A stretch of DNA of 45,000 nucleotides from Lentisphaerota bacterium (GTDB lineage: Bacteria; Verrucomicrobiota; Kiritimatiellia; PWTM01): contig VGWF01000010.1 of assembly GCA_016873715.1 (NCBI GenBank), positions 1 to 45,000 of the forward strand, read 5' to 3'. Shown here piece by piece: positions 85 through 35,790 of this stretch. The position numbers and the translations under genes were made by a program. Positions within the stretch are counted from its first letter, which is position 1. The number at the start of each line of letters is the position of its first letter. A model generated the notes under the pieces. It ran no database searches, was not told the DNA's origin, and worked only from the letters and a program-made list of their open reading frames with translations.

Positions 85-202
85 GGCCCGGCCTCGGCCC
101 CCGCCCGGGAACGCGTCTCCAGGTCCGCATGGCCACGGGATCCCTCGAACGGCCGGGCCGAACGGGAAGCCCTCGCGAGCTTCGTCGCCATCCCTGCGCC
201 TG

Positions 203-236
203 TCCTGCGCAGGGTGACGGCCGGGGGGCGGGCGCC
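203..236 (+). repeat. Imperfect direct repeat, copy 1
   Basis: This 34-bp segment begins TCCTGCGCAGGGTGA and ends GGGCGGGCGCC. It matches 329-361 with only a few substitutions and one length difference. The two copies bracket the double hairpin at 240-309, so they may be part of a larger mobile or amplified unit, or an older duplication that the hairpin element entered. Confidence 0.6.
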
Positions 237-239
237 AAC

Positions 240-309
240 GTAGTCCTCACGCTCCGCGTGAGGACATCTCCGCAATCCGGATGGTCATCACGCGGAGCGT
301 GATGACTAC
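240..309. repeat. REPIN-like element: two inverted hairpins
   Basis: Hairpin 1 (243-265) has a perfect 10-bp stem, GTCCTCACGC with its complement, and loop TCC. Hairpin 2 (284-306) has stem GTCATCACGC and loop GGA. Hairpin 2 is the reverse complement of hairpin 1, including the outer GTA/TAC, except for one C-G pair changed to A-T on both arms, a compensatory change that keeps the stem. Eighteen bases separate them. Two inverted REP-type hairpins with a short spacer is the architecture of REPINs mobilised by RAYT transposases. No RAYT gene lies in this window. Confidence 0.6.
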
Positions 310-328
310 CCTGCGGGGCCGCCGCCGA

Positions 329-361
329 TCCTGCGCGGGGTGATGGACGGAGGCGGGCGCC
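329..361 (+). repeat. Imperfect direct repeat, copy 2
   Basis: This 33-bp segment begins TCCTGCGCGGGGTGA and ends GGGCGGGCGCC. It is the second copy of the repeat at 203-236, in the same orientation, 126 bp downstream. The similarity stops abruptly at both ends. Confidence 0.6.
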
Positions 362-450
362 CTCCGCGGACCGGGGTGCCATAATGGTCTTGCCGACTCG
401 GGCGGAAACCTGCGATATAGGACGGCTGACGGCAGGGAGGGACTCCATCC

Positions 451-1242
451 ATGACGGAAGACCGGAGACGGCCGGGGAAGGTGCTTCTGGCGGCGATCTT
501 GACGCTGGGAGGCGCGGCGACGGCGGAGGTGACGGTCCAGCCGGATCTCACCTATGCGACGAAGTACATGGCGCACGGCATGAACATCGGCGGCGACGAG
601 CCGACGTGGCAGCCCTCGCTCGCGGTCGACGGACTCCTCCCGGGACTGACGCTGAAGGCGTGGATGAACCGCCCTGTCTCGCGGGATCTGGACGGGTTCG
701 TCGAGGTCGACTACCTCGTCATTCTCGGGCACACGTTCGAGGCCGACGAGCGGTGGGCGTTCAACCTGCACGGCTACGTCGACTACTGGATCTACCCCTT
801 CACCGCCCTGAGCGACACCGTCACCAGCGACCTCGACGGCTGGAAGTTCCATGCCGGCGTCTCGTTCCCCAACCTGATCCGGCTGGGCGCGGTCCCGATC
901 GTGCCCGCCTACAACTACTTCCACTGGATTCCTCGCGAATCGGGCGAATTCGACCGGGGCGGCATTCACGAACTGTTCCTGTTCTCCCCGATCCCCGGCG
1001 GGCTGCTGGGACTGCCGCTGCCCGACGGACAGACCCTGGACCTCGGCGCGAGCCTCAACTACTTCGACAGCGCGTTCGACTTCCCCAGCGCCCTGAGCCA
1101 CGCCACCGCGCACCTTTCCACGACCTTCAACCTCAAGGGCCTCCTGCTGACGCCGTCCGTCAACTACCAGTGGTCCTTCGAGGATGCCGTGAACCCCGAG
1201 GACGAGTTCTGGGCATCGCTCTCGGCCTCGGTCAGGTTCTAA
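451..1242 (+). CDS. Probable outer-membrane beta-barrel protein (TorF/TIGR02001-like)
   Basis: This 263-residue protein starts with two Arg-rich stretches and a hydrophobic segment (about residues 11-25, ending TAEV), a likely signal peptide cut near residue 25. The mature part alternates hydrophobic and polar residues with many Tyr, Trp and Phe, and it ends in Phe (SASVRF), the usual BamA recognition signature of outer-membrane barrels. The early motif YATKYMAHGM followed by PSLAVD resembles the start of TIGR02001/TorF-type putative porins; that assignment is inferred from pattern only. The ATG is preceded by AGGGAGG at suitable spacing. It stands alone, with no obvious functional neighbour. 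A general role in outer-membrane permeability is possible, but the substrate is unknown. Confidence 0.7.
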   Translation: MTEDRRRPGKVLLAAILTLGGAATAEVTVQPDLTYATKYMAHGMNIGGDEPTWQPSLAVDGLLPGLTLKAWMNRPVSRDLDGFVEVDYLVILGHTFEADERWAFNLHGYVDYWIYPFTALSDTVTSDLDGWKFHAGVSFPNLIRLGAVPIVPAYNYFHWIPRESGEFDRGGIHELFLFSPIPGGLLGLPLPDGQTLDLGASLNYFDSAFDFPSALSHATAHLSTTFNLKGLLLTPSVNYQWSFEDAVNPEDEFWASLSASVRF

Positions 1243-3769: not shown

Positions 3770-6051
3770 ACGACCTCGAAGGGGATCGCGGGGAGAACGC
3801 CGAGGGGGATCTTGCGCCCGCCGCCGCCCTGCGGGGGCTTGGCATCCTTGGGCCGGAACGCGCTGCCGTCGCCGAGGAGGTCGACGATGAGGTTCCCCCG
3901 GATGCCCGCCTTCGCCTTGTCGCCGTCGGCCTTCAGGAGGATCTCGGCGTTCTGCTCGCTCCAGTTGACCTTCTCGATCGTGAGCCCCTCGGGCGGCTCG
4001 TTCAGCTCGATCTGGATGTTCTTGACGAAGGTCCGGCCGGGCACCAGGACGCGCACCGGAGCGGTGCCGCCGGCCGGGATCCGGACGGGCCCGTCCGCCA
4101 GGATCCGGGGGGGCGGCGGGGGGCGGAACCCGCGGCTGACGACATTGGCGAGCAGGGTCTCGGCGGGAACGAGGTGACGGTAGAAGAAGGCCTGCATCAT
4201 GTCGTCCGATGGAACCGCGGGCCGGCGGACCTCGCGGCCGAGGATCGTCGCGACCCCCTGCATCTTCAGGCGCACGGCATGGTTGGTGCCCTCCGGCGGC
4301 GGGAGGAGCGTCAGGCGGACCTTGTCCTCCCCCTTCGGAATCCGCCCGCCGGCGAGAACGAACCCCTTCGGCGCGTCCTGAAGCTCGACGGCGATCTCGC
4401 CGTCGAACCCGTCGCGCCGGAACGCGAAGACCGTCAGCGGGGCCGCGGCGCCGGCGCGCAGGTTGATGCTGGAGGGAACCACCCGCAGATCGAAGGACGG
4501 CCTGCGCGGGCTGATGCGGCAGCGGTAGGCGTAGGTCTCGTCCCCCTTGCCCTGCGTGTCGGATACGCTGACGATGTAGGCGCCGGAGGCCGGCAGCACG
4601 CACTCGACCCGCGAGTCGGCCTGGTGGGTGATGAGCCCCGCGCCCTTGTCGTCGAAGTCGTCGTTGAAGGCGAGTTGCTTCCCGGTGGCGTCGAAGACGC
4701 GGACGATGGAGTCCAGCGGGGAGTGAAGGCGGCGCGCGGTCACCTCGACGACCATGGTCTCGCCGCCACGGCCCTCGAACCGGAAGAGGTCGCGGTCACC
4801 CGCGCGCCCGATGCGCCCGTTGATCACCATCGGGAACTCGACCTTCTGCGCGGTGCGGAGATCGTCGTTGGACTCCGTCTCCAGGCACTCCGGGAGCGTG
4901 TCGATGGCGAACGGGACGAAGTTGGAGATGCGATCGCCCTTGTCGACGGCGATGGGCAGCGCGCCCGGCGTCGGTCCGTCGGGCGTCAGGGTGAGGTTCT
5001 TCTTCGGCAGGTTCCATCCCATGACGTCGATCGTGGTCTGGACGCCGGCGCGGCCGCCGAGGGGGAACACGCCGGAGAGATAGGGCACCTCGCCGACGGT
5101 GACCCGGTAGACGAAGTCCTCGCGGCCGCGGAAGATGGAGTCCTTGATCTCGATGACGTAGTCGCCGTCCTCCGGGATCGTGCAGGCGATCACGGGGTCG
5201 GGGTCGAAGCGGTTGTCGTCGGCATAGGCGACCTCGTCGCCCTTCGCGTTGCGCAGGGACAGCGTCGCCTGGAACCATCCGGGCACGGCGTCGGCGAGGT
5301 ACGGGACCAGCGATCGTGCGGCGGCGGCGACGACGAGCCGCTCGCCCTTCTTCGCCCGGAAGCGGAACTTGTCCAGGTCGCCGGGCGTCACCTGGCCGTT
5401 GAGCACGAAGGGATGCGCGACCTCGATCGCCTTCTCGGGCGCGCGGTCGTTGGGCTCCTTCTCGCTGACCTCGGCCACGCGACCGACCTGGAACTTGAGC
5501 GGATTCGTCAGACCGAGGCTCGTCCGCAGCCGGATCTCCCGGTCGCCCAGCGGCGCACCGGGCGCGACGGTGACCGTGAGCGCGACGGTCTCGGAGATCG
5601 CCGGATTCAGCTGCTTCTTCGGATCGTTCGCCTTCTTGCGGTACTCCTGGAAGGCGCGCATGCTCATCTCGTCGATGCCGGCCTGGCGCAGCGTTTCCTC
5701 GATCCGTTTCCGCAGCTGCTCGGCCTCCTTCGCCATGGCCGCGTTGGTCTTCCCCATGCCGGCCAACTGGGTCATCTTCTCGAAGTTGTTCCGGAGGCCG
5801 TTCGCCTGCTGCTGCGTGAGGGCCTTGATGTGACGGCCGACCTCGACCGTCATCCCGCGCCCCGACACCTCGACCTCCGAGACACCGTCGAGGTACTGGC
5901 CGCCGACGGTGACCTCGAAGGTCCGTCCCTGCTGCCCGCCGGCGGGGTAGACGTAGCCGACATGGGGTTCGCGCTGTTGCGCGGCCGCCGGGAGGGCCGC
6001 CGCCAGCGCGACAGCGGACGCGGCGACGGTCCGCCAACGGAGGGCCTTCAT
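3760..6051 (-). CDS. Secreted PPC-domain and IPT/TIG-like multidomain protein
   Basis: This 763-residue exported protein begins MKALRWRT with a hydrophobic signal segment ending AAAQQ (about residue 26). Visible architecture: an IPT/TIG-like domain (GYVYPAGGQQGRTFEVTVGG); a helical, Gln/Lys/Glu-rich insert at about residues 75-140; a first bacterial pre-peptidase C-terminal (PPC) domain starting at EKEPND; a second TIG-like segment (FPLGGRAGVQTTIDVMG); a second PPC domain starting at ETESNDD; and Ig-like C-terminal strands with a proline run (RPPPPPR). No catalytic motif is visible, so it is probably an adhesion or substrate-binding partner. It is the last gene of the three-gene cassette with DUF1501 and DUF1549/1553, 14 bp downstream of the DUF1501 stop, with GGGAG before the ATG. 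The open frame continues far upstream, but only this Met precedes a signal peptide. Confidence 0.85.
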   Translation of the reverse strand: MKALRWRTVAASAVALAAALPAAAQQREPHVGYVYPAGGQQGRTFEVTVGGQYLDGVSEVEVSGRGMTVEVGRHIKALTQQQANGLRNNFEKMTQLAGMGKTNAAMAKEAEQLRKRIEETLRQAGIDEMSMRAFQEYRKKANDPKKQLNPAISETVALTVTVAPGAPLGDREIRLRTSLGLTNPLKFQVGRVAEVSEKEPNDRAPEKAIEVAHPFVLNGQVTPGDLDKFRFRAKKGERLVVAAAARSLVPYLADAVPGWFQATLSLRNAKGDEVAYADDNRFDPDPVIACTIPEDGDYVIEIKDSIFRGREDFVYRVTVGEVPYLSGVFPLGGRAGVQTTIDVMGWNLPKKNLTLTPDGPTPGALPIAVDKGDRISNFVPFAIDTLPECLETESNDDLRTAQKVEFPMVINGRIGRAGDRDLFRFEGRGGETMVVEVTARRLHSPLDSIVRVFDATGKQLAFNDDFDDKGAGLITHQADSRVECVLPASGAYIVSVSDTQGKGDETYAYRCRISPRRPSFDLRVVPSSINLRAGAAAPLTVFAFRRDGFDGEIAVELQDAPKGFVLAGGRIPKGEDKVRLTLLPPPEGTNHAVRLKMQGVATILGREVRRPAVPSDDMMQAFFYRHLVPAETLLANVVSRGFRPPPPPRILADGPVRIPAGGTAPVRVLVPGRTFVKNIQIELNEPPEGLTIEKVNWSEQNAEILLKADGDKAKAGIRGNLIVDLLGDGSAFRPKDAKPPQGGGGRKIPLGVLPAIPFEVVAR

Positions 6052-7473: not shown

Positions 7474-9057
7474 CTAGTGCCGGTGCAGGAACTCCGTGCT
7501 GTTCACCAGAACCCATACCAGATCGAGCATCACATCCCGGCCCTTCACCGCGCCCGAATCCATGTACGCCCTCAACGCCCGCCCCTCCTCCTCCGTCGGG
7601 AGGCGGGAGAGGATCGTCAGGTACATCCGGCCGACCGCTTCCCGCGGGTTCTTCTTGCCGGACGCCATGATGGCGGCCAGTTTCGAGCTCTGCTCGATCT
7701 TGCGCCGGACATGGCTGGAATTCAAGAGATGAAGGCGCTGTTGCGCCGTGACCCGGTTGTTGCGCTCGGACTCGATGCCGGTGTCGCGCGGCGGCCGCCC
7801 GAACAGCTCGAGGAAGGAACTCGAGATGCTGCCGTCGGGCAGTTCGATGGAGCGGGCGTCCTTGGGGACGAAGGTGAAGGGCTCGGGGATCGGACTCTCG
7901 TACTCCTCGGTCGTGCCGGTGACCTGGCAGAGGGCGTCGATCAGGACCTCGGCCTCGAGGCGGCGCATGGCGTAGAACGCGAAGTTCGCCTCCGCGCCGG
8001 GCTTCGTCGAGGCGGGGATCGGGGAGAGCTGGTAGGTCTGCGAGTTCAGGATCAGGCGGAAGAGGTGCTTCAGGTCGTACTTCGACGCGACCAGTTCCTG
8101 CTGAAGGTAGGCGAGAAGTTCCGGGTGGACGGGCGGGTTGTCCTCGCGGAGGTCGTCCGGCTCGTGGATGATCCCCCGCCCCAGGAACCAGCTCCACGCG
8201 CGGTTGGCGATCGCGCGGGTCATCCACGGGTTGCCGGGCGCGGTGAACCAGTCGGCGAAGACGATGCGCGGGTCCTGCCCCGGCGCGATCCGGGCCGGGG
8301 TGCCGTCCGGGAAGGCCGGGGTCCGGGCGACGCCGGGATTGGTGCACACCCGCCCCGGGTCGAAGTAGAGGATCTCCTCCTTCCACTCCCCGGTGGGCTT
8401 GTAGGCGATCTTCGTGAAGAAGGCGGCCATGCCGGCGAGGCGGTCGGCGGGCCACTTGTCGGCCCGCATGCCCATGAAGGTGAGCGCGACGGCCTGCGCG
8501 AGGCCGGGCGGCTCGCGATTCTGGACGGCGCGGTAGAAGTTGACGGGCGCGACGCGGAAGTTGCTTCCGTTGGCGGTCAGCATCTCGCGGACGAACCGGT
8601 CGTACGGGACGTTGTCCCGCATGCACTCCAGGATCCAGCGGTGGTAGGCCTGGGCGGCGTTCGGCCAGAGGTTGATGGGGAACTCGGCCTTCACGCGCAG
8701 CAGCTCGGCCCACTTCATGGCCCAGTAGTCGGCGTACTCGCGGCGCTCGAGGAGGGCGTCGATCAGGAGGCGGCGCTTCTCGGGCGACTTGTCGAAGATG
8801 AACTGCGACGCCTCCTGGGCGGTGGGCAGGGTCCCGATGACGTCGAGGTAGACCCTTCGAACGAAGACGCCGTCGGAGCAGTTCCTTGCGGGCGGGATGT
8901 CGAGCTGCCGGAGCCGGGCGAACACCAGTTCGTCGATCCTGCCGCGGGGGCGCACCTCGGCCGCGTTCTCGAACGGGCCCGGGCGCGGCGCGGCCGTCTG
9001 CCCCCCCGCCGTCGAGGCGAGGGCCGCCACGGCCACCGCGATCCATCCGCGCAGCAT
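7474..9057 (-). CDS. Secreted DUF1549/DUF1553 (PSCyt2-PSD1) protein
   Basis: This 527-residue protein begins with a hydrophobic signal peptide (MLRGWIAVAVAALASTAGG). DUF1549 occupies about residues 38-230: IDELVFARL, then RRVYLDVIGTLPT, a very characteristic signature, and MKWAELLRVK. DUF1553 follows from about residue 270: WMTRAIANRAWSWFLGRGI, HPELLAYLQQEL, LFRLILNSQTYQLS, then the FGRPPRDT motif and QRLHLLNSS. The frequent N-terminal cytochrome c domain (PSCyt1, CxxCH) is absent; no CxxCH occurs anywhere in it. The family is a marker of Planctomycetota and Verrucomicrobiota, with unproved roles in extracellular carbohydrate or sulfated-polymer use. It is the first gene of a three-gene cassette. 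GGGAAAGG lies upstream of the ATG. No clear promoter is seen in the 190 bp before it. Confidence 0.9.
   Translation of the reverse strand: MLRGWIAVAVAALASTAGGQTAAPRPGPFENAAEVRPRGRIDELVFARLRQLDIPPARNCSDGVFVRRVYLDVIGTLPTAQEASQFIFDKSPEKRRLLIDALLERREYADYWAMKWAELLRVKAEFPINLWPNAAQAYHRWILECMRDNVPYDRFVREMLTANGSNFRVAPVNFYRAVQNREPPGLAQAVALTFMGMRADKWPADRLAGMAAFFTKIAYKPTGEWKEEILYFDPGRVCTNPGVARTPAFPDGTPARIAPGQDPRIVFADWFTAPGNPWMTRAIANRAWSWFLGRGIIHEPDDLREDNPPVHPELLAYLQQELVASKYDLKHLFRLILNSQTYQLSPIPASTKPGAEANFAFYAMRRLEAEVLIDALCQVTGTTEEYESPIPEPFTFVPKDARSIELPDGSISSSFLELFGRPPRDTGIESERNNRVTAQQRLHLLNSSHVRRKIEQSSKLAAIMASGKKNPREAVGRMYLTILSRLPTEEEGRALRAYMDSGAVKGRDVMLDLVWVLVNSTEFLHRH

Positions 9058-31833: not shown

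Positions 31834-35790
<3,957 letters not shown>

Follow-up and report, generated by a model that had tools for sequence, protein, structure and literature searches.

A GTAG-Type REPIN between Direct Repeats

The window, by which we mean the whole 45,000-nucleotide stretch of Lentisphaerota bacterium DNA analyzed here, carries at positions 240–309 (+ strand) a pair of hairpins in inverted orientation that together form a GTAG-type REPIN of textbook form, i.e., two inverted REPs with their GTAG feet outside. Hairpin 1 (243–265, + strand; C type) reads GTCCTCACGC-TCC-GCGTGAGGAC and hairpin 2 (284–306, − strand; A type) reads GTCATCACGC-GGA-GCGTGATGAC. Each has a perfect 10-bp stem and a 3-nt loop, and the sole difference between the two stems is one pair, C-G in one and A-T in the other. 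An 18-bp spacer (266–283, + strand), conserved among copies, lies between the hairpins; with their feet, the two form a 26-bp inverted repeat that is 92% complementary. The preliminary description of this DNA had located the double hairpin and its single differing pair correctly. The outer feet, GTAG at 240–243 and its complement CTAC at 306–309, were not mentioned there; GTAG in this place is the hallmark of GTAG-type REPs (PMC3733652, PMC8266576). As single-stranded DNA, the stretch is predicted to fold with −57.4 kcal/mol (z = −6.0), and none of 200 shuffles folded as well.

On either side of the REPIN lies a linker. The left linker (203–239, + strand) includes one copy of an imperfect direct repeat (203–236), and the right linker (310–361, + strand) includes the other (329–361). 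These repeats, also recorded in the preliminary description, are 84% identical over 25 nt (203–227 and 329–353) and extend to about 236 and 361 via one indel. Upstream, positions 85–202 (− strand) hold what remains of a related MITE that lacks a REP dimer; the remnant was recognized by MAFFT alignment with elements of the same genome (contigs C33, C14, C92, and C102). Its REPIN-facing end is truncated, and its start is approximate, the best alignment running from about position 108. The whole sits in the gap upstream of a gene at 451–1242 (+ strand) that encodes a 263-aa protein with no Pfam match.

Copies and Tandem Arrays in the Genome

The preliminary description had staked its reading on further copies of the hairpin or of its flank in the same genome, and these were found. 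A search of the 5.13-Mb genome (a draft of 289 contigs, 97.6% complete) with window positions 200–370 gave 158 matches on both strands, which represent about 80 distinct copies of 79%–95% identity; the 0.95 Mb fetched around the matches contained 82 near-identical REPINs at 43 loci. The REPIN is single at 25 of the 43 loci and forms arrays of two to five at 18, with units spaced 110–112 bp or 122–129 bp apart and, in two cases, 162–163 bp. The exact REP, GTRGTCNTCACGCNNNGCGTGANGAC, has 139 sites in the genome, 138 of which fall within the 0.95 Mb examined.

At most loci, the linker flanks the REPIN on both sides, and neighbors in an array share one linker. Since the linker between units recurs through the arrays, the direct repeats of the window are array linker. 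Such tandem units of REPIN plus flank, which explain the direct repeats, liken the family to BIMEs and tandem clusters (E. coli BIME-2, P. fluorescens SBW25); in SBW25, tandem REPIN clusters take in flanking sequence (PMC3116915). Unlike in those clusters, the repeated flank is here the same at every locus, because it belongs to a MITE (see below). Units within an array differed by 1.9 mismatches, compared with 3.9 between loci, a difference reached by 0 of 2,000 permutations. This greater likeness within arrays points to REPIN amplification in place.

Stem Variation and Genomic Placement

The C-G to A-T difference between the hairpins had been taken in the preliminary description as a sign that the stem is under selection. 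The difference is fixed in nearly all copies and is therefore a single ancestral one. Stem changes among 53 distinct REPINs are one-sided, producing G-T wobbles or broken pairs, and not one double compensatory change occurs in this set. Conservation of the spacer nearly equals that of the stems; hence selection on the stem is not supported by these copies.

Copies are nearly always intergenic in a genome that is about 88% coding. According to gap classes from a simple self-trained gene finder, whose calls are approximate, the 35 loci with both neighbors comprise 19 unidirectional, 16 divergent, and no convergent gaps, whereas other gaps of at least 150 bp comprise 105 unidirectional, 49 divergent, and 23 convergent ones. 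Classical GTAG REPs are reported to favor unidirectional and convergent gaps (PMC3733652). On contig C108 (L114), a single REP (2674–2702) and a diverged REPIN (4978–5041) lie inside a 1,549-aa open frame with a sulfatase-like part; the diverged REPIN shows a compensated stem change (CCTCTCGC/GCGAGAGG).

The strong fold and the intergenic placement are what one would expect of a functional RNA or DNA element under selection, such as a terminator, an mRNA stabilizer, or a gyrase site. We give this explanation almost no credence: the element has no Rfam match, its stems lack compensatory changes, spacer and stem are about equally conserved, and both the preference for divergent gaps and the target-site duplications described below speak against it. 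Copies may nonetheless exert secondary effects on neighboring genes.

The REPIN Lies within a TIR-Bounded Element

When the loci were aligned, the flanks proved homologous at most of them, to the left for about 50 bp as far as GGGCGCATCTCCGG and to the right for about 115 bp, through a 74-bp module, as far as CCGGAGATGCGCCC; these ends are TIRs. A composite with one REPIN measures about 236 bp overall. The TIR plus one base, with at most one mismatch, occurs at 106 sites in the genome, compared with 2 for a reversed-pattern control. Among the TIR sites listed (all but 6 of the 106), all were MITE-sized or unpaired except for a weak pair 2.6 kb apart on contig C53.

Target-site duplications of 8–9 bp, matching at 8 or more of 9 bases, border 19 of 31 elements, including 13 of 18 REPIN carriers. 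In 2,000 random re-pairings of left and right flanks, scored with the same tolerance for shifted boundaries, the mean was 0.28 and the maximum 2. A clear duplication is missing in 12 of the 31 elements. The duplications include GGCCGAAAC on contig C53, ACCGCCACC on C37, TCGCCGCGC on C51, CGCTCAGAG on C245, and GTTCGCGCG on C179. A single pair of duplications encloses entire arrays of three to five REPINs (contigs C1, C17, C179, C70, and C47), and REPIN-free MITEs of 74 bp have exact 9-bp duplications (C9, CTTCCAAGG; C46, ACATGATTC). No copy of the exact composite lacking its REPIN was found in this genome. The elements are non-coding and range from 74 to 735 bp.

A sister group of MITEs has another interior, which is either empty or occupied by a different GTRG REP dimer, present as one or two units with the feet inside. 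One MITE superfamily thus carries two different GTRG REP dimers. The contig ends C92 (L361, 1–290) and C46 (L362, 1–220) overlap and are nearly identical, with a GTRG dimer of about 77 bp in only one of the two MITE copies, a difference that reflects either strain variation or an assembly effect.

The simplest reading of the 8–9-bp duplications, the TIRs, and the REPIN-free versions is that what moves is the TIR-bounded element, which carries the REPIN as cargo. TIRs with duplications of this length are the signature of a DDE-type MITE rather than of a RAYT; IS200/IS605-type Y1 enzymes are not known to make such target-site duplications. No autonomous element or DDE transposase bounded by these TIRs turned up at the listed sites of the draft assembly, which could miss a repetitive IS.

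Much about the family resembles the product of an ordinary REPIN/BIME history, in which a RAYT moved the REPIN everywhere and the common flanks are tandem-array linkers only. The family has GTAG feet (141 of 164 REPIN ends) or GTGG feet (15; 156 together), pairs its REPs in inverted orientation, and repeats them in tandem along with flanking DNA, all as in classical REPINs and BIMEs (PMC3116915, PMC8266576), and the genome has eight RAYT/Y1 genes, one of which, on contig C117, carries GTAG REPs of other stems. However, classical flanks are unrelated from locus to locus, whereas those described above are homologous and end in TIRs; the duplications are foreign to Y1 enzymes; no RAYT of this genome bears the window REP in its flanks; and the empty class of convergent gaps (0 of 35) departs from the placement reported for REPs (PMC3733652). 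We therefore regard this history as unlikely. A TIR-bounded unit that is moved by a tyrosine transposase (TIRYT/TIRtron-like) and has the REPIN in its interior would have a precedent in Di Nocera et al. (2013), who tie TIR families to tyrosine transposases and describe GTAG dimers in longer palindromes (PMC3733652). But the 8–9-bp duplications argue for staggered double-strand cutting, and no Y1 gene of this genome is closely flanked by GGGCGCATCTCCGG at up to two mismatches, making this origin very improbable. A MITE with the REPIN as cargo is thus the reading we prefer.

The preliminary description had seen in the outer repeats either a composite unit or repeated insertion. The composite survives, in the form of the TIR-bounded MITE; repeated insertion gives way to a shared array linker, which resembles the left end of the MITE.

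In the window, one REPIN stands between two copies of the linker. The left linker equals the stretch that directly follows the left TIR in intact composites, and the TIR itself (GGGCGCATCTCCGG) is lost; in intact copies, the right linker is followed by the 74-bp MITE module with the right TIR, and this module is missing. Because both TIRs and a target-site duplication are absent, the membership of the window copy rests on its homology to intact copies. The remnant to its left, at about 85–202, aligns in reverse orientation with the REP-free sister MITE, so that the locus is a decayed junction where two related elements meet, ahead of the gene at 451–1242.

RAYT and Y1 Transposase Genes

As the preliminary description had stated, the window contains no RAYT. 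It had further assumed that a RAYT mobilizes the element and had suggested looking for its gene near one of the copies. This assumption fared less well: none of the eight Y1/RAYT-like genes detected in the genome is flanked by the window REP, though a draft assembly could miss a repetitive RAYT, and in view of this result and of the 8–9-bp duplications, a RAYT is probably not what spread the copies. Six of the eight genes (contigs C27, C147, C35, C11, C170, and C117) adjoin other repeat families. At least five (L078, C147; L080, C35; L083, C170; L084, C117; L077, C27) each have a distinct family of their own, arranged in tandem units. Around the C117 gene, tandem units of about 106 bp contain GTAG REPs whose stems differ from those of the window REP; this is a clear GTAG REPtron, with stems CGCCACG and CCGCGGG and loop GCTACGA. 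In the RAYT frame at 33200–34412 of contig C35, additional copies of the C-terminal part alternate with in-frame REP-like repeats, a pattern suggestive of partial gene duplication through tandem amplification of REPs. Contig C118 (L385) has three GGGCGCCGCTCCGT repeats, at 8697, 8774, and 8852 (77–78 bp apart), a further family of short tandem repeats that resemble those near the C147 RAYT. A gene lying amid single REPs on contig C6 was considered as a RAYT and rejected, since it encodes a sulfatase.

A scan of 80 loci from other genomes revealed no RAYT adjoining the REP, and the gene was sought genome-wide instead. Of the RAYT genes inspected in 16 genomes with the exact REP, one is REP-bracketed. 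In the Planctomycetia MAG F1-120 (L241; G289, contig C148), a 225-aa RAYT of the Y1_Tnp type has GTAGTCATCACGC REPINs on both sides; on its 3′ side, they form tandem units of 116 bp, beginning with one that overlaps the stop codon. The closest RAYT of our genome is that of C117 (37% identity in the genome search, 31% in pairwise alignment). The F1-120 REPINs, like ours, occur in tandem units; unlike ours, they are linked to a RAYT, and the base of their hairpin is slightly different. Through the REP that brackets the F1-120 gene, our REPIN can be assigned to a RAYT family of the planctomycete phylum. REPINs do occur in genomes that lack their RAYT (PMC8049555). Hence, membership by sequence stands, while the case for a resident RAYT as the spreader of these copies is weakened.

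Occurrence in Other Genomes

The exact REP was found in at least 81 stretches of named genomes, all but three of them planctomycete among the matches listed. This company, together with the gene content of the window, would point to a planctomycete host. It was absent from 287 relatives of the same class. The composite was not found in 37 class relatives, two of which gave short matches to the hairpin or the linker and nothing longer, and matches to the MITE in class relatives did not exceed about 43 bp. Searches for plasmid or phage carriage likewise gave no match. Such a patchy spread fits lateral arrival or repeated loss.

REPINs with the same hairpin can also stand free. In the planctomycete VGZJ, their flanks differ at each locus; free REPINs there (L142, L162, and L202) have short symmetric sites on either side, aatc-GTAG ... 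CTAC-gat, possibly reflecting a target preference of the RAYT. In the Planctomycetota genome JACPPF (NC_groundwater_620; L147, L153, L161, and L203), the REPIN family lies within unrelated 26-bp inverted repeats, CAATcACCCGCTTCgTTGTTGGGATC and GATCCCAACAatGAAGCGGGTaATTG, that adjoin A-tracts; three of these copies are complete, and a fourth is truncated. Together with our genome, JACPPF suggests, from few copies, that REPINs have been captured by TIR elements more than once.

Discussion

We consider it likely that window positions 203–361 are a decayed non-autonomous composite, a MITE with GGGCGCATCTCCGG/CCGGAGATGCGCCC TIRs and an internal GTAG-type REPIN, that moved as a unit. A RAYT-type enzyme would once have placed the REPIN into the MITE; the whole composite would then have been mobilized by a DDE transposase recognizing the TIRs, so that the REPIN multiplied with no RAYT involved. 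Slippage in replication or recombination between linkers may have expanded and contracted the number of REPINs in place, and the window copy would later have lost both ends beside the remnant of a related MITE.

The repeat itself is of a known kind; what is new is how it is arranged, as a REPIN that was probably spread as the cargo of a MITE. Families of GTAG-type REPs and REPINs have been described in E. coli, Pseudomonas, and Stenotrophomonas, and also in Planctomycetes and Verrucomicrobia (PMC3733652, PMC3116915, PMC8266576). The present family shares with them a GTAG or GTGG foot 5′ of the palindrome, a 9–10-bp stem with a short loop, head-to-head pairing, a length of 70 bp, many intergenic copies, and the presence of several REP/RAYT families per genome. 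It differs in that a single kind of TIR-bounded element, bordered by target-site duplications, encloses nearly all copies and in that no RAYT in the genome is flanked by the REPIN. With bacterial MITEs such as RUP, NEMIS, Nezha, and MITEAba12, it has in common the TIRs, the duplications, the absence of coding capacity, the size (74–735 bp), the intergenic location, and a presumed movement in trans; unlike them, it carries a second, unrelated mobile repeat as cargo, in variable copy number. REP dimers within a longer inverted repeat are known from A. variabilis (GTAG-15), H. neapolitanus (CGTC-1), and T. roseum (GTAG-23). The part of that survey at hand makes no mention of target-site duplications, which are present here, and gives no dimer-free outer palindromes for A. 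variabilis or H. neapolitanus, whereas here the outer element also exists REP-free (PMC3733652).

On the current view, a RAYT that resides in the genome and is inherited vertically multiplies the REPINs, and their active horizontal transfer has been judged unlikely because they are non-autonomous (PMC8049555). It may well be, though we propose it tentatively, that they have a second, RAYT-independent way to spread, recurring in planctomycetes, by capture in unrelated TIR elements and multiplication by DDE transposases. A REPIN inside a MITE would escape its dependence on a RAYT and could multiply without one, and it could spread horizontally if its carrier moves between cells. This genome provides a direct comparison, since one MITE superfamily occurs in it empty, with one type of REP, with another, and with one to five units. 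It also serves as a warning that a high copy number of REPs is no proof of RAYT activity.
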